From a virus, in the IMG/VR virus record IMGVR_UViG_3300011116_000388, positions 1-25,950 of that record: 25,950 nt of DNA. The stretch is one strand, 5' to 3'. Every line of letters begins with the position of its first letter. Within the stretch, counting starts at the first letter, position 1. The notes beneath the pieces are model-generated. The model did not search any database, was not told the origin of the DNA, and was given only the letters and a program-made list of their open reading frames with translations. Below are positions 3,780-22,268 of this stretch, one piece after another. A program made the translations under genes and the position numbers.

Positions 3780-5161
3780 GAGCTAATTTCCATCTCTTGG
3801 CGATAAAGCTCAATTATTTTTTCGTGATTGTCGATATTGCCGCGCAACATTGAGTAGACCTTTGACTCAACTGGGCTTCCGACAATATGCACAATGGTCA
3901 TGTTGTTCTGCTGACCGGGGCGATCAATCCGAGCATTTGCTTGTAGATAAGTTTCTACACTCGTAGTCGGTGCATACCAAATGATCGTATCTGCTGCGGT
4001 TAGTGTCAAGCCGTGGCTTGCTGCCTGTGGTTGGATTAGCAATACGTGCGGGTTGGGGTTGTTTTGAAACTCTTTGACAAGCTCGGCACGGCGATTGACC
4101 GGCACCGAACCATTAATTACTTCGCAAGAGATATGCTTGCTTTCAAGAAATTCTTTCAGTAAAGCAATAGTGTGCGTGTATGGCACGAACACCAACACCT
4201 TGTGGCTTGCTTCCTCAATAACTTCATGCACGACTCTTAGTCGGTTGCTAACGTCGAACTCAACGACTTCTTTTTTGTCGGAGTACACAGCACCGCCAGC
4301 GATCTGTAGGAGTTTGTTGAGCTTAGCTGCTGCGTTGATAGAACTAATCTCTTCCCCTGCGGCTTCGATCAGCATCTGCTTCTTCATCGCCATGTAGTAC
4401 TTAGTCTGCTGCGGGGTCATTGGCGCATCGCGGTCAACAAACGTGACGGGTGGTAAGTCTAGGCAGTCGGCTTTCTCGAACCGAATGGCGGGTTGCAGAA
4501 TCTTGTGGATCAACTGCTGTGCCCCCGGCTTGGGTATCCACGTGTACTCACTTACCTTAGTCATCACGGTGTCGCGGTACTGCCCGAAGAAAGGTGGAAC
4601 GCCTTGCGGATTGACCAGCTTAGCTAGCCCATACGCATCTAGTGGTGACTGTGCAGCGGGGGTGCCGGTCAGCATCCACAACCCTTTGACCGTCTTGCCG
4701 ACATCGCGGAGTGCTTTCCAGCGATCTGTCTGCGCGTTCTTGTATGCCGAGGCTTCATCAACCACAACCAAGTCGAACCCAGCTTTGGCTAGCTGATCCT
4801 TGACGATCTTCACGCCGTCGAAGTTGATGATGACAAACTCAGCGTTGCCGTTGATTATTTCTCGGCGCTTGTCTGCTGATCCGTGCGCAATAGCAACGGT
4901 GCGGTGTACAGCGAACTTGAATAAATCTTCTTGCCAAGCGGAGCGCATCACGGACAGGGGGCACACAATCAGCACCCGCCGTAGCACACCCTTGTTCATG
5001 AGATAGTCGGTTGCCCAAATGACCGACGCAGTCTTGCCGGTACCCTGCTCGTTGAAGCAGAAGGACTTGCGGTTGCTGACTAGGAACTTAGCCGTTTCTT
5101 TTTGATGGGCGAACGGGGCAAACCCAAATGGCCTAGGCCATTCGTAATCTTCTAAAAGCAT
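3776..5161 (-). CDS. SNF2/DEAD-type DNA helicase (superfamily 2)
   Basis: 461 aa, with the SF2 motifs in order: a Q-like motif FAHQKETAKFL (17-27), Walker A NEQGTGKT (37-44), motif II VVVDEAS (132-138), motif III LTGTPAAQ (164-171) and motif VI ARIDRPGQQ (410-418). The ARIDRxGQ form is typical of SNF2-family ATPases. Length fits the single-subunit phage SNF2 helicase found beside PolA and VRR-NUC genes. It should translocate on DNA during replication or recombination. The ribosome site is weak (GAGAG about 7 nt upstream) and the HNH-like gene ends 14 bp before its start. Promoter P3.7 overlaps its stop codon. Confidence 0.93.
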   Translation of the reverse strand: MLLEDYEWPRPFGFAPFAHQKETAKFLVSNRKSFCFNEQGTGKTASVIWATDYLMNKGVLRRVLIVCPLSVMRSAWQEDLFKFAVHRTVAIAHGSADKRREIINGNAEFVIINFDGVKIVKDQLAKAGFDLVVVDEASAYKNAQTDRWKALRDVGKTVKGLWMLTGTPAAQSPLDAYGLAKLVNPQGVPPFFGQYRDTVMTKVSEYTWIPKPGAQQLIHKILQPAIRFEKADCLDLPPVTFVDRDAPMTPQQTKYYMAMKKQMLIEAAGEEISSINAAAKLNKLLQIAGGAVYSDKKEVVEFDVSNRLRVVHEVIEEASHKVLVFVPYTHTIALLKEFLESKHISCEVINGSVPVNRRAELVKEFQNNPNPHVLLIQPQAASHGLTLTAADTIIWYAPTTSVETYLQANARIDRPGQQNNMTIVHIVGSPVESKVYSMLRGNIDNHEKIIELYRQEMEISS

Positions 5162-6346: not shown

Positions 6347-8166
6347 TCTCCGTAACTCCTTCCATATCCAGCTTCGCAGTTTAACGGAAGCTCGGACGCC
6401 CACATAGGTCGCAGTCTCATGCATAGTTCGACGAACTCCTTCCCTGTTTCAGCTTCACCCTCTGGTACTAGGCAAGTAACAGCATCGTGCACCGTCATAA
6501 CCACCGGATACTTTTTGGCAATCATCAGCATCTGGTCGCCGATGATGATCCTAGCTAGGGCTTGGCAGACGTTCTCGATTACCTTCCCACCGTAGATGCG
6601 GTTGGGTATCGTGGCTTTGCCGCGCTTGGTGTCGTACACATACTCGGGCTTGGCTCCCGGCTCCCGCTCTATCCAGCGCAGGTTGGGGTACTTGATGTAC
6701 AGGCCGTTGGGCAGTCGGATGCCTTTGGTGCCTTCAACCTTCAGCACTCCATCGCGCCCCAACTCCGTGGCTCTGTCACCAATGATGGCGTTCAAACAAT
6801 CTGCCGCCCTTTTCCATAGCTCAGGAATCTTCGGATAGGTGCGACGATAGGTTTCGATAATTCTCTTACACTCTTCCAGTTCGATTTCAACTTTAAAAGT
6901 TTTAAGTTGTGCTTGGAACTTCGCCGCCCCCATGCCATATCCAGCACCAAGGATCGTTGTCTTACCAACGAACCGCTCATCCGGATTAACCGACGCTTCT
7001 GGGATGCCATAAATCGCTGAGGCCATAATTTTGTAGACATCTTCACCTCTATCAAATGCATCTACCAAGTCATTCTGCCCCGCTAGCCATGCCAGCGTAC
7101 GTGCTTCGATCTGCGAAGAGTCCGAGTCGATCATCATGTAGCCCTCGGGGGCGATGATGGCTTTCTTGATGGGTGACTTGCGGGGTAAGTTCTGTAGGTT
7201 CAGCTTGTCGTCACCTCCCCAACGTCCAGTATGCGCAGCGTAGTAACGTAGGGGTACCGGCAGGGGGCCTCGTTGCCCTATGCTAATCATGCGCTCGGTG
7301 CGGGTTTCCTCCAGCGTTGACTTCACCCCAAGCCGTGCCGCCACGATGGTTTGCACTCGTGGGTCTGGATGCACTAGTAGTGCTTTGAACTCTTCATCGT
7401 TCTTTGCAAACGCCCATGTTTCTTTGCCGGTGGTCAGGCTAACCTTGCGCGGAGGCACCACACCCAGTAGTTTTAGTAGGTCGGCGAGTTGTTCGTTTGA
7501 CTGCAAGACCGACGCAGTTTTGTCGGCGTTCCTTAGTAGCTCGGCCTTCTTTACTCGAACAATCTCAAGGTGCTGACGTAGCCCTTCCACACCCACGCGA
7601 AGCTTTGGCTCCGAGAACATGCGGATGGTCAGGTCGATTAGCCGTAGCTCTTTGGCAGGGAACTGGTGGGACAAAAGGTTGAACAGCTTGTAGGTCAGCT
7701 CGACATCGTTCTTACAGTACTCACCGTACCGTGCCAGCTCACCGGGAAGGAAGTCGGCTCGGCGTTTGCCCAGCGCATTGACCACCTCATCGCCCTTCTC
7801 ACCTAATGCGTAGTACTTGGCTAGCGCCGCAAGGCTACCGCCCACTTCGATGCTATGAAGTGCACGTGACATGCTAAGCGTGTCAAGCCAGCCGCGAGGC
7901 TTAATACCGAAATGCCAAGTAAGAATAGCGGCATCAAACATAGCGTTATGAGCAAGCACCAGATGTTCGCCCATATTGAATGAGTCCAAGAACTCCTTGA
8001 TCTCCTCGGCGGTGCCACTGCACCACTCGGCTTCTGCATCGCCATCTTTGACCCCCACACCAATTGTTTCAAACCTATCTCCGCGCACATACTCTTCCGT
8101 GGTCAGCTTCGACAGGCTGAAGTCACGGTCATAGTACGTCTCAAAGTCAACGGTAATTATTTTCAT
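6340..8166 (-). CDS. Family A DNA polymerase with 3'-5' exonuclease domain
   Basis: 608 aa. Exonuclease motifs: Exo I VDFET (D7, E9), Exo II HNAMFDA (N74, D78), Exo III YCKND (Y150, D154). Polymerase motifs: HTGRWGGDDKLNLQNLPR (312-329), motif A DSDSSQIEAR with catalytic D349, motif B RFVGKTTILGAGYG (R398, K402, Y410), and motif C TVHDAV with catalytic D561. The residue equal to E. coli Phe762 is leucine (L406), and the usual glutamate after the motif C aspartate is alanine (A562). There is no 5' nuclease domain, as usual for phage PolA. It is the replicative polymerase of this phage. The start overlaps the VRR-NUC stop (ATGA). Confidence 0.97.
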   Translation of the reverse strand: MKIITVDFETYYDRDFSLSKLTTEEYVRGDRFETIGVGVKDGDAEAEWCSGTAEEIKEFLDSFNMGEHLVLAHNAMFDAAILTWHFGIKPRGWLDTLSMSRALHSIEVGGSLAALAKYYALGEKGDEVVNALGKRRADFLPGELARYGEYCKNDVELTYKLFNLLSHQFPAKELRLIDLTIRMFSEPKLRVGVEGLRQHLEIVRVKKAELLRNADKTASVLQSNEQLADLLKLLGVVPPRKVSLTTGKETWAFAKNDEEFKALLVHPDPRVQTIVAARLGVKSTLEETRTERMISIGQRGPLPVPLRYYAAHTGRWGGDDKLNLQNLPRKSPIKKAIIAPEGYMMIDSDSSQIEARTLAWLAGQNDLVDAFDRGEDVYKIMASAIYGIPEASVNPDERFVGKTTILGAGYGMGAAKFQAQLKTFKVEIELEECKRIIETYRRTYPKIPELWKRAADCLNAIIGDRATELGRDGVLKVEGTKGIRLPNGLYIKYPNLRWIEREPGAKPEYVYDTKRGKATIPNRIYGGKVIENVCQALARIIIGDQMLMIAKKYPVVMTVHDAVTCLVPEGEAETGKEFVELCMRLRPMWASELPLNCEAGYGRSYGEC

Positions 8167-8842: not shown

Positions 8843-8845
8843 CAA

Positions 8846-8869
8846 TAAAAAAGCCGCCCGAAGGCGGCT
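8846..8869 (-). terminator. Rho-independent terminator (leftward)
   Basis: On the minus strand AGCCGCC-TTCG-GGCGGCT is followed by six T. It lies 26 bp after the DUF3310 gene stop and ends the long unit started at P19.0. The hairpin and flank repeat at 22247-22268 over about 26 identical bases. Confidence 0.92.
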
Positions 8870-8894: not shown

Positions 8895-9434
8895 TCAGGG
8901 TGCTGTGGCTTTAGTTATCTCTCGGTCAAGGTACCACCGTGCTTTCATCAGGTCTTGCTTCCTGTTGCCCTTGTGGTCGGCACGTGTGATGTACTTAACA
9001 ACATTACCTAAGTTGTAAGAGAGTTGCTTGGCTTCAATAAAGTCGATAGTCTCGATGCCACCGGTAGTGTAGTGCGGTGGGTGGTTGACCAAATCGACAT
9101 TCGAGTTACCAAACTCTTTCTCACCCTCGAACGCTTCACTCAAGTACTTCACTACCTTCACACCCTGCTGCTTAGCCCGCCAAATAGAGAGCACTTTGGA
9201 TATGTACGAATAGCTATACGCTGTAGCAGCGGCGATCTCCCGCACACTCATATTGGGGAAAGTTACTGCGTACTTGCGTATCGTCTCGGCCTTATCGGGT
9301 TGGGGCCCACGCTTTGACGTGATACCGCGCAGCGACGAGCTTTTCGATTTCTTCTTCGCTGAGTCCAGCGTACTCGTCGGGAGTCGCTGGGGCTGGACTT
9401 GCTTGCGGGGTCGGCCTCGTTTCTTGGTAGTCAT
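8895..9434 (-). CDS. AT-hook + HTH + DUF3310 fusion protein
   Basis: 179 aa with three parts. Residues 4-11 (KKRGRPRK) form an AT-hook. Residues about 50-90 hold an HTH (MSVREIAAATAYSYSYISKV). Residues about 114-173 are a DUF3310 domain (DLVNHPPHYTTGGIETIDFI, later NVVKYITRADHKG and MKARWYLDRE). DUF3310 is the domain also present in the T7 gp1.7 nucleotide kinase, which suggests nucleotide metabolism, but DNA-binding parts on the same chain are unusual and point to a regulatory use. The ATG has AAGGAG 7 nt upstream. The first 48 codons overlap the ribbon-helix-helix gene in another frame by 143 bp. It is the last gene before the 8.85 kb terminator. Confidence 0.85.
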   Translation of the reverse strand: MTTKKRGRPRKQVQPQRLPTSTLDSAKKKSKSSSLRGITSKRGPQPDKAETIRKYAVTFPNMSVREIAAATAYSYSYISKVLSIWRAKQQGVKVVKYLSEAFEGEKEFGNSNVDLVNHPPHYTTGGIETIDFIEAKQLSYNLGNVVKYITRADHKGNRKQDLMKARWYLDREITKATAP

Positions 9435-9663
9435 ACTTAGCTCCTTCGTTAGTAGGTTTAGTTGTTTCTATTTGAACTTCTTTGTTCGTCTTGCGACGCA
9501 CATACTCAATCAACACCTCCCGCATCATGGCTTGCTTAGAATACGGATGGTGCTCATTGAAGTAATCCATCACCTCAATCGGCAATCTCACACTGGTGTT
9601 AAACATAGCTGGTCGCTTGCCCAGCCCTCTCCCCTTGCGCTTGGCGGGGACTTCTTCAGTCAT
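9292..9663 (-). CDS. Ribbon-helix-helix (Arc/MetJ-like) DNA-binding protein
   Basis: 123 aa. Residues about 20-58 fit a ribbon-helix-helix: the strand MFNTSVRLPIEVMDYF, then a helix pair around SKQAMMREVLIEYVRR. The N-terminus is basic (KRKGRGLGKR), and the C-terminal half is a Pro/Thr linker ending in a helix GLSEEEIEKLVAARY. A GGGGG-type site precedes the ATG, which overlaps the 69-aa gene by 8 bp. Its last 143 bp are read in a second frame by the start of the DUF3310 fusion. It is probably a repressor or antitoxin-like regulator; the target is unknown. Confidence 0.78.
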   Translation of the reverse strand: MTEEVPAKRKGRGLGKRPAMFNTSVRLPIEVMDYFNEHHPYSKQAMMREVLIEYVRRKTNKEVQIETTKPTNEGAKYDYQETRPTPQASPAPATPDEYAGLSEEEIEKLVAARYHVKAWAPTR

Positions 9664-9890: not shown

Positions 9891-10655
9891 TCATAAATAT
9901 TTTAGTATCCCGTTAGTTGCGCATGTCATGTTAGGGCCAAAGTAATCTACGTACTTCCTGTCTACCATTAAATTGCCACTGTCTTTTATTAGAGTCTTGA
10001 GATCGTGTTGTTTAGCTTCAGTGTCCTCAACAAACAAGTAGTCACCACTAACAAGAAACGCGTTGAAAAACTTTAGTACCTCTAAGGTATTGACGTGCGC
10101 ATCCTCAACAACCAGCCAAGGATGGGGCAGCTTGCTGTAATCAACGCCGCGAAACGTATCAAGGTCATTGCAGTCGGCGTGTAAAAACTGTATGCGATCA
10201 GTAGCAGCAGGAGGCGTAATATCAAAACTGTAAACCGTTGTATCTAAGCCAAACGCCTCAGTCATATCTTTCATGTACTCGGCACTAGCACCGCTACCAG
10301 AACCAATCTCGATGATCGTCTTTGGCTTTAGCTCCCATAGCAGCATATGCAGGATCGCCATGTCGTACGTTGTCTTAAGTATCGGCTTACCCTTCCACGT
10401 CATGCAGTCGATGAAGCCCTGACTAAAGTACATATATGTATCTGCCAGCTCGGGGCGGGGGAGCGATGGCTCGTCGGCCTGAGTAAACCGTTTATCCTCA
10501 AGCACCTTCCATTCATACCAACGAGACGCAGCAGAGCAGTCCTTATGCGACAGTTGATTCATATTGTTTAACAGCGCAAGCAGAAAGTTGTCAGAGAAGG
10601 TGCGCACGTTACCTTGCGCAGTTATCTTGTTTATTAAATACACGCCAAGATTCAT
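9891..10655 (-). CDS. CmcI-type SAM-dependent methyltransferase (cephalosporin hydroxylase family)
   Basis: 254 aa. The class I methyltransferase nucleotide loop is clear: TIIEIGSGSGASAEYM (113-128). It is followed by an acidic strand end VYSFDITPP (D145), HADCND (159-164), and VVEDAHVN and GDYLFVEDT (182-189, 204-212). The order IEiGsGsGaSa ... SfDi ... vEDaH ... GdYlfvED is that of the CmcI / rhamnosyl O-methyltransferase family, usually O-methylating small molecules or sugars. The ATG has GGGGG 4 nt upstream. It ends the oxygenase cassette and is 9 bp from the DUF6065-like gene. The substrate is unknown; phage or host glycans or a modified residue are possible. Confidence 0.85.
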   Translation of the reverse strand: MNLGVYLINKITAQGNVRTFSDNFLLALLNNMNQLSHKDCSAASRWYEWKVLEDKRFTQADEPSLPRPELADTYMYFSQGFIDCMTWKGKPILKTTYDMAILHMLLWELKPKTIIEIGSGSGASAEYMKDMTEAFGLDTTVYSFDITPPAATDRIQFLHADCNDLDTFRGVDYSKLPHPWLVVEDAHVNTLEVLKFFNAFLVSGDYLFVEDTEAKQHDLKTLIKDSGNLMVDRKYVDYFGPNMTCATNGILKYL

Positions 10656-10663
10656 CGCACCCC

Positions 10664-11374
10664 CTACTTAAAAGATTTTTTGCTATGAAATAGCTTCTTA
10701 TACCCACGCTCGAAATGTCGAGCAATAAAATTTGGTTGAGCGTTTTCGGCAAAGGTAACGCTTGCCGCCCATTCGTCGCGTTTATAAGGCAGCACAACTA
10801 TTAACGGGGTGCCAGCCTCAAGTTTGAATGACCCCCGCTTTAATAAATAGCCCGGAAAATTTACCTGTTGATTGTATGTGTCGCAATCTACGATAGCTGG
10901 CAATAAACGTAAGTGTTCGTTAAACAAAAACTCCGGCTGATAAAACAAGCATGAGTAACCGGATGGCACCTTTATGGTCCAAGGCAAACTAAATTTTATG
11001 TATGACTTTTTCACGCCCCCAATCTGCACAGGAAGCTGAACGTGATGGTGCATACTCACGCATTGGGGGCCGTTGCCCGTGTACCACCAAACCACTTCTT
11101 CCCCATTAACTTCCTCGACAGTAAACCCTACGTCGGTATGTAGCCGAAACACGTAGCCGCTAGTCAAGTAATCAAGTATTGGTATGCAGCCCTTAACTGA
11201 AAACTGTGTGCCGTGTGTTCTGTGCCCGCTTTGAACCCGATCTTTATATGTGCATTCAGAAACAGTTAAAGGCAGCGTTCTGTACCAGTCTGGAATTACG
11301 GCGGACGCAGGGACGGGCGGGAACATTTCCAACGTCAACTTGTCTTGCGTCGTGAACTCTATTAGCTTTGTCAC
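10664..11374 (-). CDS. DUF6065-like conserved protein of oxygenase cassettes
   Basis: 236 aa with a GTG start at 11374 (GGGGG 8 nt upstream), directly after the cupin stop (TAAGTG). Motifs: PPVPASAVIPDWYRTLP near 19-35, GCIPILDYLTSGYVFRLHTD near 62-81, SLPWTIKVPSGYSCLFYQPE near 129-148, and a late PLIVVLPYKRDEW. This pattern, with alternating strands and PWTIKVPSGYS, is what I recall of DUF6065 proteins from marine viruses and bacteria, probably a beta-helix fold. No catalytic residues are evident apart from a histidine run (MHHHVQLP). The name is from memory and moderate; the place between a cupin and a methyltransferase suggests a shared pathway. Confidence 0.65.
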   Translation of the reverse strand: MTKLIEFTTQDKLTLEMFPPVPASAVIPDWYRTLPLTVSECTYKDRVQSGHRTHGTQFSVKGCIPILDYLTSGYVFRLHTDVGFTVEEVNGEEVVWWYTGNGPQCVSMHHHVQLPVQIGGVKKSYIKFSLPWTIKVPSGYSCLFYQPEFLFNEHLRLLPAIVDCDTYNQQVNFPGYLLKRGSFKLEAGTPLIVVLPYKRDEWAASVTFAENAQPNFIARHFERGYKKLFHSKKSFK

Positions 11375-11782
11375 TTATGAAACCCCCATCGATATGCCCG
11401 CTCGTGGAGTCAGCGGGATGACATTGTGATAAACCCCCCTTGGTACATAGATCATGTCGCCGGGAGTCAGTATGTACTCGTGCCCTTCCACTTCCCACTT
11501 AGTACTACCTTGGCATTGCCAGAAGTACACATCAACATCGTCTACGTGTTTGCCAAAGCTGCCGCCGTGTTGACTGACATTCATGTACAAGTGGGCGGTA
11601 TCGCATCCGAGTTTCTTCATTAATGACTGAACCTTTTGCATACGGTCAGCCGTGTGTGACACAAAGAACCCAAGCGGTACATGCCTGACATGCTCCTGTC
11701 GCTCAACAGACTCATTAAAGTTGTTCAACAGTTCTTGCCAGCCGATGACATTTGTATCGTACTGAGAGTAAAAAGTAGTCAT
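11375..11782 (-). CDS. JmjC-like cupin, probable Fe(II)/2-oxoglutarate oxygenase
   Basis: 135 aa, a compact double-stranded beta-helix. GSFGKHVDDVDVYFWQCQG carries an HxD pair (H79, D81), followed by WEVEGHEYILTPGDMIYVPR and a distal histidine H119 in GVYHNV. HxD...H with the PGDxxYVPxGxxH cupin strand is the iron-binding layout of JmjC-type hydroxylases. The protein is shorter than cellular JmjC enzymes but is complete for the core. It overlaps the upstream oxygenase gene by 4 bp (ATGA) and is directly followed by the DUF6065-like gene, so the four-gene cassette is translated together. The substrate is unknown. Confidence 0.78.
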   Translation of the reverse strand: MTTFYSQYDTNVIGWQELLNNFNESVERQEHVRHVPLGFFVSHTADRMQKVQSLMKKLGCDTAHLYMNVSQHGGSFGKHVDDVDVYFWQCQGSTKWEVEGHEYILTPGDMIYVPRGVYHNVIPLTPRAGISMGVS

Positions 11783-12375
11783 AGCACTAACTCGCCTAAC
11801 TGTGTAGCATCACCTATCGTGCCACGTAGGTATGAGTTAAACGCAATGCTAACTCGTGTGTCGTTAGTAGTAGCGCGTTCTACCATATGCATGAGAGACG
11901 ATGGAAAAATAACTAACTCGCCGGGGCGCACGGTGAACGGCATTATGTTCTGGTTCCACTCGTTCGTGGTACGCGTAGCCATCTCGATAGCTGGTGGGGA
12001 GTCTTTTATAAATACAATCTTATCTTCTGGGGTTACAGATACGTAGAACACCCCAGATAAGAAACTATTAGGGTGCCTGTGTGCGTGGTGGTTCTGCCCT
12101 TTGGTGGTGTAGTTAGCCCATGCCTGAGTTATATACGCCGACACGTCTGTCGATGGGCAGTATATGGTCTGTAAAAAATCATTTAGACACTCCGTTGCGA
12201 AGTCCGCTATCCGTTTTAGTTCCGGTTTATGAAAAATATAATTCTCTTTCGAGTTCATGTTGCTCATATTAGCTACACGCGGTAGCCGGTTCACGAAAAA
12301 CATTTCCTCTGTAAGAATCTTATCTATCGAGTACACCGCGATGGGAGTGGGGAACGCTGCGTATAACTCCTTCAC
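11779..12375 (-). CDS. 2OG-Fe(II) oxygenase (2OG-FeII_Oxy_5 type)
   Basis: 198 aa from a GTG at 12375. This start is chosen over an upstream ATG (12441) because it has AAGGAG 8 nt before it and forms a GTGA overlap with the preceding stop. The start fits the family (FPTPIAVYSIDKIL). The core is AWANYTTKG (86-94), a histidine cluster HHAHRHPNS (96-104), SGVFYVSV (107-114), PGELVIFPSSLMH with distal H163, and R174 in TRVSIAFNS for 2-oxoglutarate. This matches the putative prolyl-hydroxylase-like family common in aquatic phages. It probably hydroxylates a protein or nucleotide target. It heads the oxygenase cassette. Confidence 0.87.
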   Translation of the reverse strand: MKELYAAFPTPIAVYSIDKILTEEMFFVNRLPRVANMSNMNSKENYIFHKPELKRIADFATECLNDFLQTIYCPSTDVSAYITQAWANYTTKGQNHHAHRHPNSFLSGVFYVSVTPEDKIVFIKDSPPAIEMATRTTNEWNQNIMPFTVRPGELVIFPSSLMHMVERATTNDTRVSIAFNSYLRGTIGDATQLGELVL

Positions 12376-12698
12376 GTGTTCTTCTCCTTCAGCTTGGCTT
12401 CTGTCATCGATACGCACTCCGGCCCATTGTTTGATTCCCACGCCAAGAATGTTCGCTCCTCATCCGTCAGCCCTTGCCATTCGCGCTGTGGTGGCGTTAT
12501 GTACAAATACTCTTGGTCAAAACAAGCAGCGTTGATACCTTCCATCCAAATAACGTGAGGATGGTAATCCTCGGCTACGTGAACTTGCGCCACCGGCTCT
12601 GGCTTCACCGCATTCCTCGCAGTCACGCACGTACCGCACTCAGCCCCATCATCCGGCATGATCTGATCCCCGCAGCCACAGAACACCGGCTTAGTCAT
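12372..12698 (-). CDS. Conserved hypothetical phage protein with N-terminal zinc site
   Basis: 108 aa. The N-terminus has FCGCGDQIMPDDGAECGTCV (C7, C9, C21, C24), a likely zinc knuckle. The C-terminal half holds YITPPQREWQGLTDEERTFL, a tail often seen in small hypothetical proteins of proteobacterial phages. AGAGGTG precedes the ATG, which overlaps the upstream stop (ATGA); its own stop overlaps the oxygenase GTG. No function can be assigned. Confidence 0.75.
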   Translation of the reverse strand: MTKPVFCGCGDQIMPDDGAECGTCVTARNAVKPEPVAQVHVAEDYHPHVIWMEGINAACFDQEYLYITPPQREWQGLTDEERTFLAWESNNGPECVSMTEAKLKEKNT

Positions 12699-13003
12699 GG
12701 CGCACCTCTCTCGCGGATAGCCAGCGCAGCTACAACGTAATAGTTCGACAGCTTGTCCTTCGCTGCCATCTCATCAAGCACCTTCGCACACGCCTCGCGT
12801 TCCTCTAATACAGCTTTACGTATCGCTACGCACACAGGCTTGTCGCACTCTGGATGACAGGAATGAATGGTGTCCCATTTAATTCTCTCGCGCTCCGCTG
12901 CTGCGACTAGAGCGGCGAACTCGCAAACCTGCTCGACCGTCATTTCCCAGCCAAAGTCCCAGCCGGTTTGCTGCGCCATGCCGATAATGTCATCTCTGTT
13001 CAT
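12695..13003 (-). CDS. Conserved hypothetical phage protein (MNRDDIIGMA family)
   Basis: 102 aa from the ATG at 13003 (GGAGG 4 nt upstream). The frame is open 27 codons further but that part lies inside the HTH gene and lacks a ribosome site. MNRDDIIGMAQQTGWDFGW, then FAALVAAAERERIKW and a CHPECDKPVC cysteine/histidine patch, and LEEREACAKVLDEMA are typical of a widespread short phage family with helical ExEACAKV repeats. The function is not known. It overlaps its neighbours by 14 bp upstream and 4 bp downstream. Confidence 0.78.
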   Translation of the reverse strand: MNRDDIIGMAQQTGWDFGWEMTVEQVCEFAALVAAAERERIKWDTIHSCHPECDKPVCVAIRKAVLEEREACAKVLDEMAAKDKLSNYYVVAALAIRERGAP

Positions 13004-13319
13004 CGCTCCTCCGATCAAACAATCTGCGCCCCGCCATAATTGCTTTTTGGTCTGTGTCGAACTCCACAATCTTCGCAATCTCATCGTCCAATCTAGGGCT
13101 AAATTCAGACACGTGGCAGTTCAAATGCCTAGCAAATGCCATAGCAGACTTAAGGTTCAACATAACTTTCCCAGTCAGGCATTGATGAATGTACCCTTGT
13201 ATTCCAACACCATAACGCTTTCCAAACTCACTTTGAGACAGGCTGCTTTTTGCTTTCCATATCTCGTATAGCTTTCTGCTCTCCTCTTTCTGTTCGTCTG
13301 GTGTAGGTTTTCTTTTCAT
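12990..13319 (-). CDS. Cro/CI-like helix-turn-helix regulator without peptidase domain
   Basis: 109 aa. Residues about 27-50 (LSQSEFGKRYGVGIQGYIHQ, then CLTGK) form an HTH of the phage CI/LexA-fold repressor type, followed by LNLKSAMAFARHLNCHVSEF and SPRL, the usual end of that domain. Full CI proteins add an autocleavage domain; this one stops about 20 residues later, so it resembles a Cro-type regulator. It is the best visible candidate for a protein binding the dispersed palindrome, but that link is inference. GGGGGAG precedes the ATG, which overlaps the upstream stop (ATGA). Confidence 0.82.
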   Translation of the reverse strand: MKRKPTPDEQKEESRKLYEIWKAKSSLSQSEFGKRYGVGIQGYIHQCLTGKVMLNLKSAMAFARHLNCHVSEFSPRLDDEIAKIVEFDTDQKAIMAGRRLFDRRSDEQR

Positions 13320-15276: not shown

Positions 15277-15291
15277 CGTTATTTCCAATCA

Positions 15292-15307
15292 CCTAACAAT
15301 TGTTATG
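15292..15307. repeat. 16-bp palindrome copy 2 (core exact, one outer base changed)
   Basis: CCTAACAATTGTTATG: the 12-bp core TAACAATTGTTA is intact and the right outer arm is altered. It abuts the stop codon of the DUF3150-like gene (15308) and lies 16 bp before the next ATG. Confidence 0.85.
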
Positions 15308-16171
15308 TCACCAATCGAACCGCTTCAGGATGTCATCGACGCGGTGCTTCAAGTCGTTGCGTACTTCAGCACTTTCCTTGATGCTCTCGATGTCTGCACC
15401 TAGCATCGTAGTCTCAAGCTCCCGACGTGCTTGCTCCAGCTTGGGGTCTTTGGTGACGTTCAGCTTGGTCAGCAAGTCGCAGAGTTCTTGTGCATTGGTA
15501 ATCAACGTCTCGTGATACCGCTTCTTGGATACCTCACCGTTACTATCCACCTCGTCGGTCAGCTTGCTGCTGGTGTCTTGCAGTATCTTGTGCAGCCGCT
15601 CCCACGGTGCTCTCATTGCATCAGCTAGCCGCTCGTCGAACTTGCGCGAATACTCCTGCTTGATCTCTTCCAAGTCGGCAATGTTTACATCCAGTCGGAA
15701 GTCCCCCGCTTCTGGTAGTGGGTTGACTGCTCGGCGGAACCCGAACTTCTCTCGCACTACGTCAATATCCGGATAGTCATCCGCCTTGTACATAGACCCG
15801 AGATTAGACTGCGCCTGTTGCACAAGCGTTGGGTACGCAGTAAAGAAGTTGTCGCACATGATGGTGAACGTCTGCGCGTAGTTGTCCATCATCTGCTTGT
15901 AGTCCATAAACAATGCAGTCGGTAGCAGCCGCTCACCCTTATCAGCCCACGGCAAAGTGTGCTGGTTGTGAAACAGTCGGACTCGTGCAGCGAACTTCTC
16001 GATGTCCTTACGCATGCTAGTACCAGCGAATAGGTTCTTCTTAGTCTGCGCTGCACCATGCACCGCACCCGCATCGTGGTTGACTTGCTCGGTGATCTCC
16101 TTGTCCACCTTCGACGCAGGCCACACGGAGATGTTCAGTTCTACCAATACTGCGCTACTTGCTATGCTCAT
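15308..16171 (-). CDS. DUF3150-like protein of the MoxR/VWA module
   Basis: 287 aa. Key segments: SAVLVELNISVWPASKVDKE (6-25), FHNQHTLPWADKGERLLPT (about 67-85), MDYKQMMDNY, AYPTLV, DYPDIDVVREKFGF and PLPEAGDFRLD (about 152-162), then a long helical region. The string 'TLPW.D.G.RLLP', 'YP.LV', 'DYP' and 'PLP..gDFR' is what I know of DUF3150 proteins, which occur in phages next to a MoxR ATPase and a VWA protein, as here. The role is unproven; it is presumably a partner or substrate of the MoxR-VWA pair. GGAG lies 6 nt upstream of the ATG. Confidence 0.8.
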   Translation of the reverse strand: MSIASSAVLVELNISVWPASKVDKEITEQVNHDAGAVHGAAQTKKNLFAGTSMRKDIEKFAARVRLFHNQHTLPWADKGERLLPTALFMDYKQMMDNYAQTFTIMCDNFFTAYPTLVQQAQSNLGSMYKADDYPDIDVVREKFGFRRAVNPLPEAGDFRLDVNIADLEEIKQEYSRKFDERLADAMRAPWERLHKILQDTSSKLTDEVDSNGEVSKKRYHETLITNAQELCDLLTKLNVTKDPKLEQARRELETTMLGADIESIKESAEVRNDLKHRVDDILKRFDW

Positions 16172-16429: not shown

Positions 16430-17626
16430 TCAGTCCTTCACGTGGACAGTCTTGCCCTTAGCCGCCATCACGTCGTTGCCACCGACGATCACCCACAGCA
16501 CAGGCGAAGGCCAGTTGCCACCCCAGTCGTTGCCCACATGCCCATCGGTCAGCACGATGCAGCACTCGGGCTCGATGTGCTTCTCTTCCAGATACTTCGT
16601 GATGCAGGAAGGCGAAGTGCCACCACCGCCCCTCGGCTTGGTCGATGTGATGATGTTGGCTACGTTGGTGTCGGTGTACTCCTCATGCCCCGCTATCGAA
16701 CTGTCCCAGTACAGCAAGTCCACCTTCTCTGGATTGACCTCCTCGGCGATACCCTTCACCTCGGATAGGAAGTCCTTCAGCTCGTTCACACCTACCGATC
16801 CTGACGTATCCACAGCTACCACCAAATGCCCCACTCTCTCACCGATCAGACTCGGCATGTATGTGTCACCCGATAGGAACCGCCGATTGACTCTGCGCCA
16901 CGATGACGCATCCCTTGCGCGGCACGTTGTCTTGACGAACTCACGCAACACTTCACGCCAATCGATTTTTGGCTGCATCAACTCGGCAAGATCGCGGGAC
17001 ATCCCACCAGTTCCTTGTCCTGCTATCTTCTGCTGCGCCATTAGCCCCTGCCGCATAGCTTGGTCAATGCCACGCGCTAGCTTCTCCTTCTCTTCCTCGG
17101 ATAAGTTCTGCGCCCCATCCCAGTCGTGCTCATCGAAGCCATCGCCTACACCATCACCGTCGCCGCCATACTCCTCTTTCAGTAGGTCGAACACTTGCTT
17201 TGAATTCAGCCCGCGATACTTCTCATCGATCAAGCCCATCACCTTGCCGCGATTCTCTCCCTCACGAAACACCGGCATGCTAATGAACCTACCCTCTGGG
17301 TCAAGGTCTCGCAGTTCCAAGTTAATGACGTAGTCACACGCAGCGTTGGCTAGCATATGGTTCTCATCATGCAGCTTCTTCCACGTAGTCAAGTGTCGAT
17401 ACGCTTTGTGCATTGCTTCGTGCAGCACCACGAATGCAAGCTCGTTGTCACGCAGCTTCTTGACGAACTCCCGCCCATACATCTCGTCGCGCCCATTGGT
17501 GCATGCAGTCGGTATGTCATCCTTCACGAATGTTCTACCTACCATCAGCACACCAGCGAACAGCGCGAACTTCTCGTTGCGCATCAGGCTAATCTTCGCC
17601 TTCTGCAACCTACGCTCTTCTTGCAT
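16430..17626 (-). CDS. DUF2201-type zincin + von Willebrand factor A domain protein
   Basis: 398 aa. The N-terminal half has a metallopeptidase-like HExxH (H69, E70, H73 in VVLHEAMHKAYRH) with NAACDYVIN (D98) behind it. The middle is Gly/Asp rich (YGGDGDGVGDGFDEHDWDG). The C-terminal half is a VWA fold with a full MIDAS: DTSGS (D273, S275, S277), T337 in GGGGTSPS, and D361 in VLTDGHVG. This is the DUF2201 layout. VWA proteins next to MoxR ATPases act as chaperone or activation partners, for example in metal insertion. An AGGGG site precedes the ATG. Its plus-strand shadow is open for 293 codons but looks spurious. Confidence 0.9.
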   Translation of the reverse strand: MQEERRLQKAKISLMRNEKFALFAGVLMVGRTFVKDDIPTACTNGRDEMYGREFVKKLRDNELAFVVLHEAMHKAYRHLTTWKKLHDENHMLANAACDYVINLELRDLDPEGRFISMPVFREGENRGKVMGLIDEKYRGLNSKQVFDLLKEEYGGDGDGVGDGFDEHDWDGAQNLSEEEKEKLARGIDQAMRQGLMAQQKIAGQGTGGMSRDLAELMQPKIDWREVLREFVKTTCRARDASSWRRVNRRFLSGDTYMPSLIGERVGHLVVAVDTSGSVGVNELKDFLSEVKGIAEEVNPEKVDLLYWDSSIAGHEEYTDTNVANIITSTKPRGGGGTSPSCITKYLEEKHIEPECCIVLTDGHVGNDWGGNWPSPVLWVIVGGNDVMAAKGKTVHVKD

Positions 17627-17628
17627 AG

Positions 17629-17832
17629 CTAGCCCCTTTCATCTACTAATAGTTTGATGTAGTTGTTGAACTGCTCTACGTCTAAGTCCCATGCTACGAA
17701 CTCACCGTCACGCATCAGTCCGTACTTGTCGGTGTGCGGGAAGCGCACCATCCTGTACCCCGCCATCCACACTGCGTTCTTCAGTATGGCGTTGCCCATC
17801 CACTCCCGCTCGATTGGGTCGTATGAGATCAT
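17629..17832 (-). CDS. Small hypothetical protein (67 aa)
   Basis: 67 aa from the ATG at 17832 with AAGGA 5 nt upstream; the longer frame begins with a TTG inside palindrome copy 3 and is less likely. MISYDPIEREWMGNAILKNA and MAGYRMVRFPHTDKYGLM suggest a small mixed fold with aromatic residues. It lies between the MoxR and VWA genes, so it may be an adaptor of that module. No family is recognised. Confidence 0.68.
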   Translation of the reverse strand: MISYDPIEREWMGNAILKNAVWMAGYRMVRFPHTDKYGLMRDGEFVAWDLDVEQFNNYIKLLVDERG

Positions 17833-17851
17833 CTCAATCCTTCTCGATTCA

Positions 17852-17867
17852 CCTAACAATTGTTAGC
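17852..17867. repeat. 16-bp palindrome copy 3 (CCTAACAATTGTTAGC)
   Basis: Copy with an intact 14-bp core and one changed outer base. It fills most of the 38-bp gap between the MoxR stop (17871) and the ribosome site of the 67-aa gene. Confidence 0.88.
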
Positions 17868-17870
17868 CCC

Positions 17871-18935
17871 TTACAGCAAGTCCTGATTCTTAGCCACCCA
17901 GTCAGAGAACGCTTTGCTGCTGAACGCTACTTGTTGCTTAGCATGGGCTTTGGATAGGTTGATAGCGAACACCGCTTGCCACTCGGGTTGCATCCGGTCA
18001 AGGTATTGCATGAACGGCGAGATGGTCTCTTTGGTTATCCGCGCAATAGCACCGAACACCACGATTGCACACGCGCCGGGATCGGTCGGTATCTTGGTGG
18101 TGGTCGGATGCTCGATGGTCTGCTCCCACGTCGGCAACTGATCCGAGAACTCCAAGTAGGCTTGCATGTCACGCGCACCCGCTTCACCGATAGCACCGGT
18201 CAATGCAGCTATCACCGCATCCGGATGGTTCTGGGCGCGGGATTTAACTATGTCCGATGCAGTCACCAATGAACGCGGCGATACGAACGCCATCTGCGGT
18301 CGCTTCGGGTTGAAGATGTACGGATTGTCCGCTTGGCTCGGGTCGGTGTAGCTTGCCAATACGTGCGGATACCTAGACACCCAAGCAATGACCTCCGCTT
18401 CCACGTCATTGTTCATCGCCCACGCCACCCACTGGTCGCTGTCGGGTTTCTGGACTGTCACCGGCACGATGCGGTTTAGTGTGTGCGCTTTTAATGTGTC
18501 GCCCACGCCGTCGGTCGCCAAGTTACCCGTCAAGAAGATGATGTTGTCCTTGTGGATCGGCACGTCACCCAGTCGCGGGTTAGCCTTCTCCAGCATGGGG
18601 TGCAGCATATTCTTGATGGGGTCAGCACCCTTCGAAAACTCATCCAACATGATGACCATCGGCTTGCCGGTATGTAGTCCGAACCTAGCGTTAGGGTAGT
18701 AGCGGGTAGTCTTAGTCTCGTGGTCGATGACCGGCATAGCCACGTCGCCCAAGTCTAGGTTAGGCACGTCAATGTAGGCATAGTCATAGCCCAGCTTGTC
18801 GGCGATGGTTTTAAGCATCCAGCTCTTGCCGATGCCCGGCTCACCACGCAGCATGAACCGAGTCTGTGGGTTGGTACGAATAAGGGTCTCGGCTTGGTCG
18901 AGTGTGACCGTCTTACCGAACTGTACTTCAGCCAT
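17871..18935 (-). CDS. MoxR-type AAA+ ATPase
   Basis: 354 aa. Walker A GEPGIGKSW (31-39), Walker B VIMLDEFSK (94-102), sensor 1 FLTGN (N138) and arginine finger region HTLNR (R155) are all present. The insert PNARFGLHTGKPMVIMLDEF before the Walker B and the 'ATDGVGDTLKAHTLNR' stretch are typical of MoxR proteins, ATPases that act with VWA partners to remodel or activate other proteins. The partner is the VWA gene 245 bp downstream. The ATG has AAGGAG 7 nt upstream. It is the first gene after promoter P19.0, so the whole long unit starts here. Confidence 0.93.
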   Translation of the reverse strand: MAEVQFGKTVTLDQAETLIRTNPQTRFMLRGEPGIGKSWMLKTIADKLGYDYAYIDVPNLDLGDVAMPVIDHETKTTRYYPNARFGLHTGKPMVIMLDEFSKGADPIKNMLHPMLEKANPRLGDVPIHKDNIIFLTGNLATDGVGDTLKAHTLNRIVPVTVQKPDSDQWVAWAMNNDVEAEVIAWVSRYPHVLASYTDPSQADNPYIFNPKRPQMAFVSPRSLVTASDIVKSRAQNHPDAVIAALTGAIGEAGARDMQAYLEFSDQLPTWEQTIEHPTTTKIPTDPGACAIVVFGAIARITKETISPFMQYLDRMQPEWQAVFAINLSKAHAKQQVAFSSKAFSDWVAKNQDLL

Positions 18936-22235: not shown

Positions 22236-22246
22236 TGACAGGCAAT

Positions 22247-22268
22247 AAAAAAGCCGCCCGAAGGCGGC
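22247..22268 (-). terminator. Rho-independent terminator (second of tandem pair)
   Basis: Minus strand GCCGCC-TTCG-GGCGGC plus six T. About 26 bp including the flank are identical to the 8.85 kb terminator. Confidence 0.9.

Follow-up and report, generated by a model that had tools for sequence, protein, structure and literature searches.

A four-gene oxygenase, cupin, DUF6065 and methyltransferase cassette in a virus record: a possible exchangeable system for hydroxylating and capping a virion protein

What might a virus modify with two predicted Fe(II) oxygenases, a methyltransferase and a DUF6065-family protein encoded side by side? The question is raised by IMGVR_UViG_3300011116_000388, a single virus record of 25,950 bases (probably a fragment of an incomplete genome), which we analyzed at full length and refer to as the window. 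An original prediction, made from the sequence, held that the four genes are made as one set and act by stepwise hydroxylation and methylation of one target. The four open reading frames are intact on the minus strand in the predicted order (PF13759 oxygenase, JmjC cupin, DUF6065 protein, CmcI-type methyltransferase), and profile matches bear out their families. The families are conserved, as are the metal-site residues, and homologues occur in viruses that are not related, which places the cassette beyond chance.

As predicted, the oxygenase and cupin genes overlap by 4 bp (11779–11782) and the cupin stop touches the GTG start of the DUF6065 gene (TAAGTG, 0 bp between them); the gap before the methyltransferase gene is 8 bp (10656–10663) rather than the 9 bp expected. 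The set does form a single unit, but it lies within a longer operon and is not free-standing, because the oxygenase GTG start at 12375 overlaps by 4 bp the stop of an upstream 108-aa gene (12372–12698, minus strand). The nearest upstream copy of an operator-like palindrome, ACCTAACAATTGTTATGT, lies at 15291–15314 (no strand assigned), and there are 0 copies inside the cassette. On the minus strand, 3′ of the DUF3310 gene, a hairpin followed by a T-run (8852–8869) resembles a terminator by consensus match only and is the probable 3′ end of the cassette-bearing transcription unit. Given these landmarks, the four genes are probably part of an early unit of roughly 6 kb and not a separate operon. 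Their surroundings (PolA, VRR-NUC, DUF3310) are those of a replication region. Profile searches of the 25,950-base record found neither a halogenase nor a carbamoyltransferase, and no tail-fibre gene was recognized in these 26 kb.

The oxygenase (11779–12375, minus strand, 198 aa) matches PF13759 at E=9e-24 (84.2 bits, curated cut-off 27) and phrog_81 at 2e-41, and carries the pattern H99-x-H101...H163...R174xS. Among 134 aligned relatives, H99 is kept in 131, H163 in all 134 and R174 in 113, while the residue at 101 is His in 89, Asp in 33 and Glu in 9. The site thus reads HxH where HxD/E is expected, as it also does in the matched solved chains 3bvc and 2rg4. By homology we assign the protein to the Fe(II)/2OG family PF13759, with 2OG turnover putative given the HxH site.

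The cupin (11375–11782, minus strand, 135 aa) is a minimal JmjC protein of the JmjC_2, ribosomal-oxygenase-like type. It matches PF08007 (JmjC_2) at 8e-14, and its putative site residues H79xD81...H119 and R127 are invariant in 17 relatives. Foldseek searches with its AF2 model (pLDDT 95.9) returned MINA53, YcfD and NO66 as top matches (E 9e-8 to 1e-6), and the modeled HxD...H metal site lies in a double-stranded beta-helix, as in the JmjC ROX group. Unlike those ribosomal oxygenases, with which it has the JmjC core and HxD...H site in common, the window cupin lacks the additional dimerization and C-terminal (winged-helix) domains, being only 135 residues long. At what we take to be the position of YcfD Arg140 there is no conserved arginine; instead another arginine, Arg127, is invariant.

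The third enzyme (9891–10655, minus strand, 254 aa) is a SAM methyltransferase of the CmcI/rhamnosyl O-methyltransferase type. It matches PF04989 (RMNT_CmcI) at 1.6e-12 (48 bits, cut-off 23.2) and CmcI itself (2br3) at 2e-21, with EDAH and VED aligned to CmcI DDAH and IED; the SAM-binding and acidic metal-site segments are retained in this alignment. Its full-length relatives (35–37% identity) adjoin TPR-fused oxygenases in two alphaproteobacterial genomes of 0.9–1.4 Mb, in one order, and one such relative is itself TPR-fused. Around two remote matches (L364 and L365), no oxygenase was found within 3.4 kb.

The DUF6065 protein (10664–11374, minus strand, 236 aa) has by itself no Pfam match at E≤1. 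However, 32 of 63 aligned viral relatives match PF19541 (best 3.5e-35, full-length homology), so the family label given originally is correct but indirect. The protein also matches phrog_7084 at 5e-43. Its AF2 model (pLDDT 90.6) retrieved dUTPase/DCD structures in all of the 50 PDB matches listed (E 4.6e-5, TM 0.60–0.77 over several targets), indicating a dUTPase/dCTP-deaminase-like beta-clip, and the best PDB sequence match of its profile, a weak one, covers dUTPase motif III. With the dUTPase motifs as generally defined, the family has the beta-clip core and motif III/IV-like segments of that superfamily, but alignment column counts show no motif I Asp and no C-terminal motif V, and the window protein has Val where motif IV would have Gln. 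Additional features are an extra N-terminal part with an invariant C63, an invariant G73, and conserved D163xD165 and K198-R199. We therefore consider a dUTPase reaction unlikely and rejected catalytic dUTPase as the function, although the depositors of S-CREM1 named a homologue ‘triphosphate nucleotidohydrolase’. SapC was dropped as a candidate relative, having no SapC Pfam match. Cellular DUF6065 genes have no oxygenase or halogenase neighbors, and those of alphaproteobacteria have no conserved partner. We found no mention of DUF6065 in the open-licence papers searched, and the family gains a fold from the present analysis.

The stretch was also predicted to be AT-rich and acquired. The GC content of 9891–12375 is indeed 46.4% against 51.0% for the window, within the lowest 0.6% of equal-sized stretches. 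After the nearest carrier, L001, the closest relatives by polymerase are L198 and L197 (86 and 84%); their other genes are up to 97% identical to those of the window, and they keep the neighboring genes in the same order with the cassette missing at that site. This empty site, together with the low GC, supports recent acquisition (or recent loss). L001 has the cupin, DUF6065 and methyltransferase genes with a 63-aa ORF in place of the oxygenase gene. The swap occurs at a shared upstream junction, CTGAAGGAGAAGAACAC (12376–12392, minus strand), identified by blastn within a 24-base match (window 12372–12395, L001 152–175). DNA identity to L001 is 0.6–0.8 in the cupin and DUF6065 genes and about 0.9 or higher across the methyltransferase gene and onward to the start of the polymerase. 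Judging from the empty site and the swap, the cassette is modular, with an oxygenase that is separately exchangeable. Elsewhere in L001, a 60% identity patch at 4601–4800 (in PolA, at about 7300–7550 of the window) lies between stretches of 84–98% identity, which suggests recombination inside the polymerase gene.

How often do these genes travel together? Profiles of the cassette proteins were searched against about 120 loci from viruses and cells that had been retrieved for DUF6065, the cupin or the methyltransferase; scans of IMG/VR with single proteins gave few loci, making profile scans necessary, and a scan with a five-member DUF6065 alignment gave 5. The control, 159 loci (1.98 Mb) around PolA/TerL relatives of this window and not a random draw of all viruses, contained 6 oxygenases, 1 DUF6065 gene and 0 cupin, halogenase, carbamoyltransferase or methyltransferase genes. 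A PF13759-type gene occurs within 1 kb in 12 of 17 non-redundant cupin loci (about 0.1 expected) and in 14 of 48 DUF6065 loci (0.28 expected), figures inflated by sampling that follows the query families and obtained from mechanical gene calls on contigs. The original prediction had named rare co-occurrence of the four genes in other genomes as evidence against it, and on this point the picture is mixed: the exact quartet was not found in any other locus examined, the methyltransferase is rare in viruses and the L001 cassette is without the oxygenase, but the core of oxygenase, cupin and DUF6065 recurs. The window itself has these three adjacent, as would be expected of a viral oxygenase/halogenase/DUF6065 island.

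Four isolated cyanophages (syn9, S-RIM44, S-CREM1 and P-TIM40) carry the core in the conserved order halogenase(s), DUF6065, oxygenases, JmjC cupin, oxygenases. The annotated genes preceding the island are collagen-like tail-fibre/structural in S-CREM1, putative fiber in syn9 and tail-fibre/structural in S-RIM44; those of P-TIM40 are unannotated. In these islands, known for 2OG-Fe(II) oxygenases, a PrnA halogenase and a carbamoyltransferase, DUF6065 and a JmjC cupin share a tight same-strand cluster with PF13759-type oxygenases, as in the window, although here the oxygenases are several. The islands differ in lacking the CmcI-type methyltransferase, in having 1–2 halogenases and as many as seven oxygenases or more, and in lying among virion structural genes whereas the window cassette lies in a replication region. 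In the literature, the cyanophage 2OG oxygenases have been explained as acting in DNA repair or in modulating 2OG/NtcA (2OG/nitrogen sensing), and the halogenase and carbamoyltransferase are listed as sporadic genes (PMC2984593, PMC3037559); a marine viral halogenase is cited elsewhere as an iodinating enzyme (PMC10452541). Larger islands occur in L018–L025 and L029 (except L022); these contain at least three DUF6065 paralogues and two to three halogenases alongside runs of several oxygenases, and fibre-like genes adjoin them where the contig extends that far. Within this group, L018, L020, L023, L025 and L029 have three or four DUF6065 paralogues in tandem per island, together with at least six oxygenases and two to three flavin halogenases.

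The neighbor of the cupin differs by lineage. It is DUF6065 plus the methyltransferase in the window and L001, a carbamoyltransferase in L094–L101 (carbamoyltransferase-cupin-oxygenase, most being near-identical copies), a halogenase in L007 (halogenase-cupin-oxygenase), and a weak sulfotransferase-like protein plus a halogenase in L107, the pattern to be expected if oxygenases were combined with exchangeable caps. The sulfotransferase-like gene (L107:7745–8491) sits between the cupin and halogenase genes and matches Sulfotransfer_3 at 2e-4, below the curated cut-off.

The reading we tentatively favor, at somewhat less than even confidence, is that of a compact ‘hydroxylate and cap’ cassette, exchanged horizontally, that amounts to a reduced form of the oxidative-tailoring islands seen in many tailed viruses of aquatic habitats. 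Either or both of the Fe(II) oxygenases (the PF13759 enzyme and the JmjC cupin) would hydroxylate a substrate, and the CmcI-type enzyme would then methylate the hydroxyl, a cap role that a carbamoyltransferase, sulfotransferase or halogenase may fill in other viruses. DUF6065, with its dUTPase-like beta-clip lacking the full dUTPase motifs, would most likely recognize or present the substrate. This reading is favored by the short-range linkage of the core families, by the cyanophage islands and by CmcJ/CmcI chemistry. In CmcI/CmcJ (cephamycin) and SulO/SulP, hydroxylation and O-methylation are sequential, and a CmcI-type methyltransferase is grouped with an Fe/2OG oxygenase, as it is with putative ones in the window; this chemistry is documented for cephamycin and, through another pair of enzymes, for sulfazecin (PMC6097109). 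Unlike CmcI/CmcJ, the window has no beta-lactam genes, and DUF6065 has no counterpart there; the window oxygenases, of families PF13759 and JmjC_2, are set beside CmcJ without sequence comparison. With these precedents and the bacterial methyltransferase relatives beside TPR-oxygenases, the predicted stepwise hydroxylation and methylation holds up as a model; the 2OG dependence of both oxygenases, of which the PF13759 member has HxH, and a single shared target are assumptions of that model. That HxH, the oxygenase-free cassette of L001 and the solitary cellular DUF6065 genes weaken the hydroxylate-and-cap reading.

The substrate is most likely a protein, and the first candidate would be a receptor-binding or tail-fibre protein of the virion. 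This is suggested by the fibre genes adjoining islands in relatives, by a prophage (L123) in which the DUF6065 gene overlaps a tail-fibre-like gene, by haloviruses in which it lies at a fibre/adhesin module, by the ROX-like cupin and by the TPR fusions. DUF6065 neighbors include tail-fibre assembly, Gly-rich, fn3 and collar proteins. In a comparison of Pfam domains near and far from DUF6065, Gly_rich_2 occurred in 5 of 93 near and 1 of 94 far, and fn3 (4) and collar (3) occurred near but were not among the 25 far domains listed; the comparison favors near, weakly when taken alone, because distant genes of the same loci are also structural, which partly dilutes the tail-fibre association. The position of the cassette in a replication region, in a record with no recognized fibre gene, and a methyltransferase family whose known members act on sugars and small molecules rather than on proteins weaken the case for a protein target.

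That position could instead indicate nucleotide or DNA modification, the main rival reading, in which DUF6065, being related to dUTPase/dCTP deaminase, would bind a (deoxy)nucleotide, the oxygenases would hydroxylate a base in the manner of TET/JBP or AlkB, and the methyltransferase would cap it. The dUTPase-like fold and weak motif III similarity fit this idea, as do the RNR or thymidylate synthase genes in the vicinity of DUF6065 in S-RIM4 and the haloviruses, the L006 methyltransferase, whose neighbors are a DUF3310-like ORF and a large metabolic gene, and the DNA repair role proposed for cyanophage 2OG enzymes (PMC2984593). We nevertheless consider it unlikely, since DUF6065 is without the motif I Asp and motif V and has Val for the motif IV Gln in the window protein, fibre genes lie next to the islands, the cupin looks like a protein hydroxylase and CmcI-type enzymes are not known as DNA methyltransferases.

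Rather unlikely, too, is that the cassette oxidizes and O-methylates a sugar or metabolite, whether of the capsule, the O-antigen, a virion glycan or host metabolism. PF04989 takes its name from rhamnosyl O-methyltransferase and CmcI, the CmcJ/CmcI substrate is a cephalosporin, and related islands contain carbamoyl-, sulfo- and glycosyltransferases; yet no sugar-nucleotide or glycosyltransferase gene was recognized in the window, the closest folds to the cupin act on proteins, and the TPR fusions of methyltransferase relatives point to protein partners. It is very unlikely that the enzymes are host-directed effectors modifying host proteins, for example ribosomal ones, early in infection like YcfD, NO66 and MINA53: the cupin fold and the position among early, replication-region genes would suit such a role, but in relatives the same set sits with late tail genes. 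Chance packing of unrelated accessory genes with no joint function, which a quartet unique to the window and an exchangeable oxygenase (L001) would allow, is highly improbable given the strong short-range recurrence of the core families and their conserved order in the four isolated cyanophages.

It is tempting to speculate further that tailed viruses infecting cyanobacteria, other bacteria of aquatic habitats and haloarchaea have in common a modular system that hydroxylates, halogenates, carbamoylates or methylates their own receptor-binding proteins post-translationally, in which DUF6065 would be the substrate adaptor, with its dUTPase fold, and the window the smallest methylating form, although we regard this broader proposal as doubtful. 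If it is right, viruses would use chemistry after translation to diversify the proteins by which they recognize hosts. Natural substrates are not established for dozens of viral 2OG oxygenases, for marine viral halogenases or for DUF6065; the linkage described here points to virion-protein modification, which mass spectrometry on already cultured phages could address. Our search of the open-licence literature for tail-fibre hydroxylation joined with 2OG oxygenases returned nothing pertinent.

Several smaller features of the window also stood out. The DUF3310 gene (8895–9434) and a gene at 9292–9663 overlap by 143 bases (9292–9434) in different frames, and both are retained in L001 and L198. 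At 16430–18935, a VWA-like protein and an AAA+ (MoxR-like) ATPase, named by eye and not by profile, are encoded as a same-strand pair conserved in L198, L200 and L223. The palindrome ACCTAACAATTGTTAGGT is found in about 10 perfect or near-perfect copies at gene starts and in intergenic positions (8878, 15291, 17851, 18972, 20130, 21266, 21600, 22219, 22888 and 22998); their distribution looks like a genome-wide operator/stoperator set, whose partner could possibly be a small HTH protein encoded at 1951–2190 or 12990–13319. The terminator-like hairpin is part of an exact 26-nt duplicate (8843–8868 and 22243–22268), each copy adjoining an operator-like palindrome.
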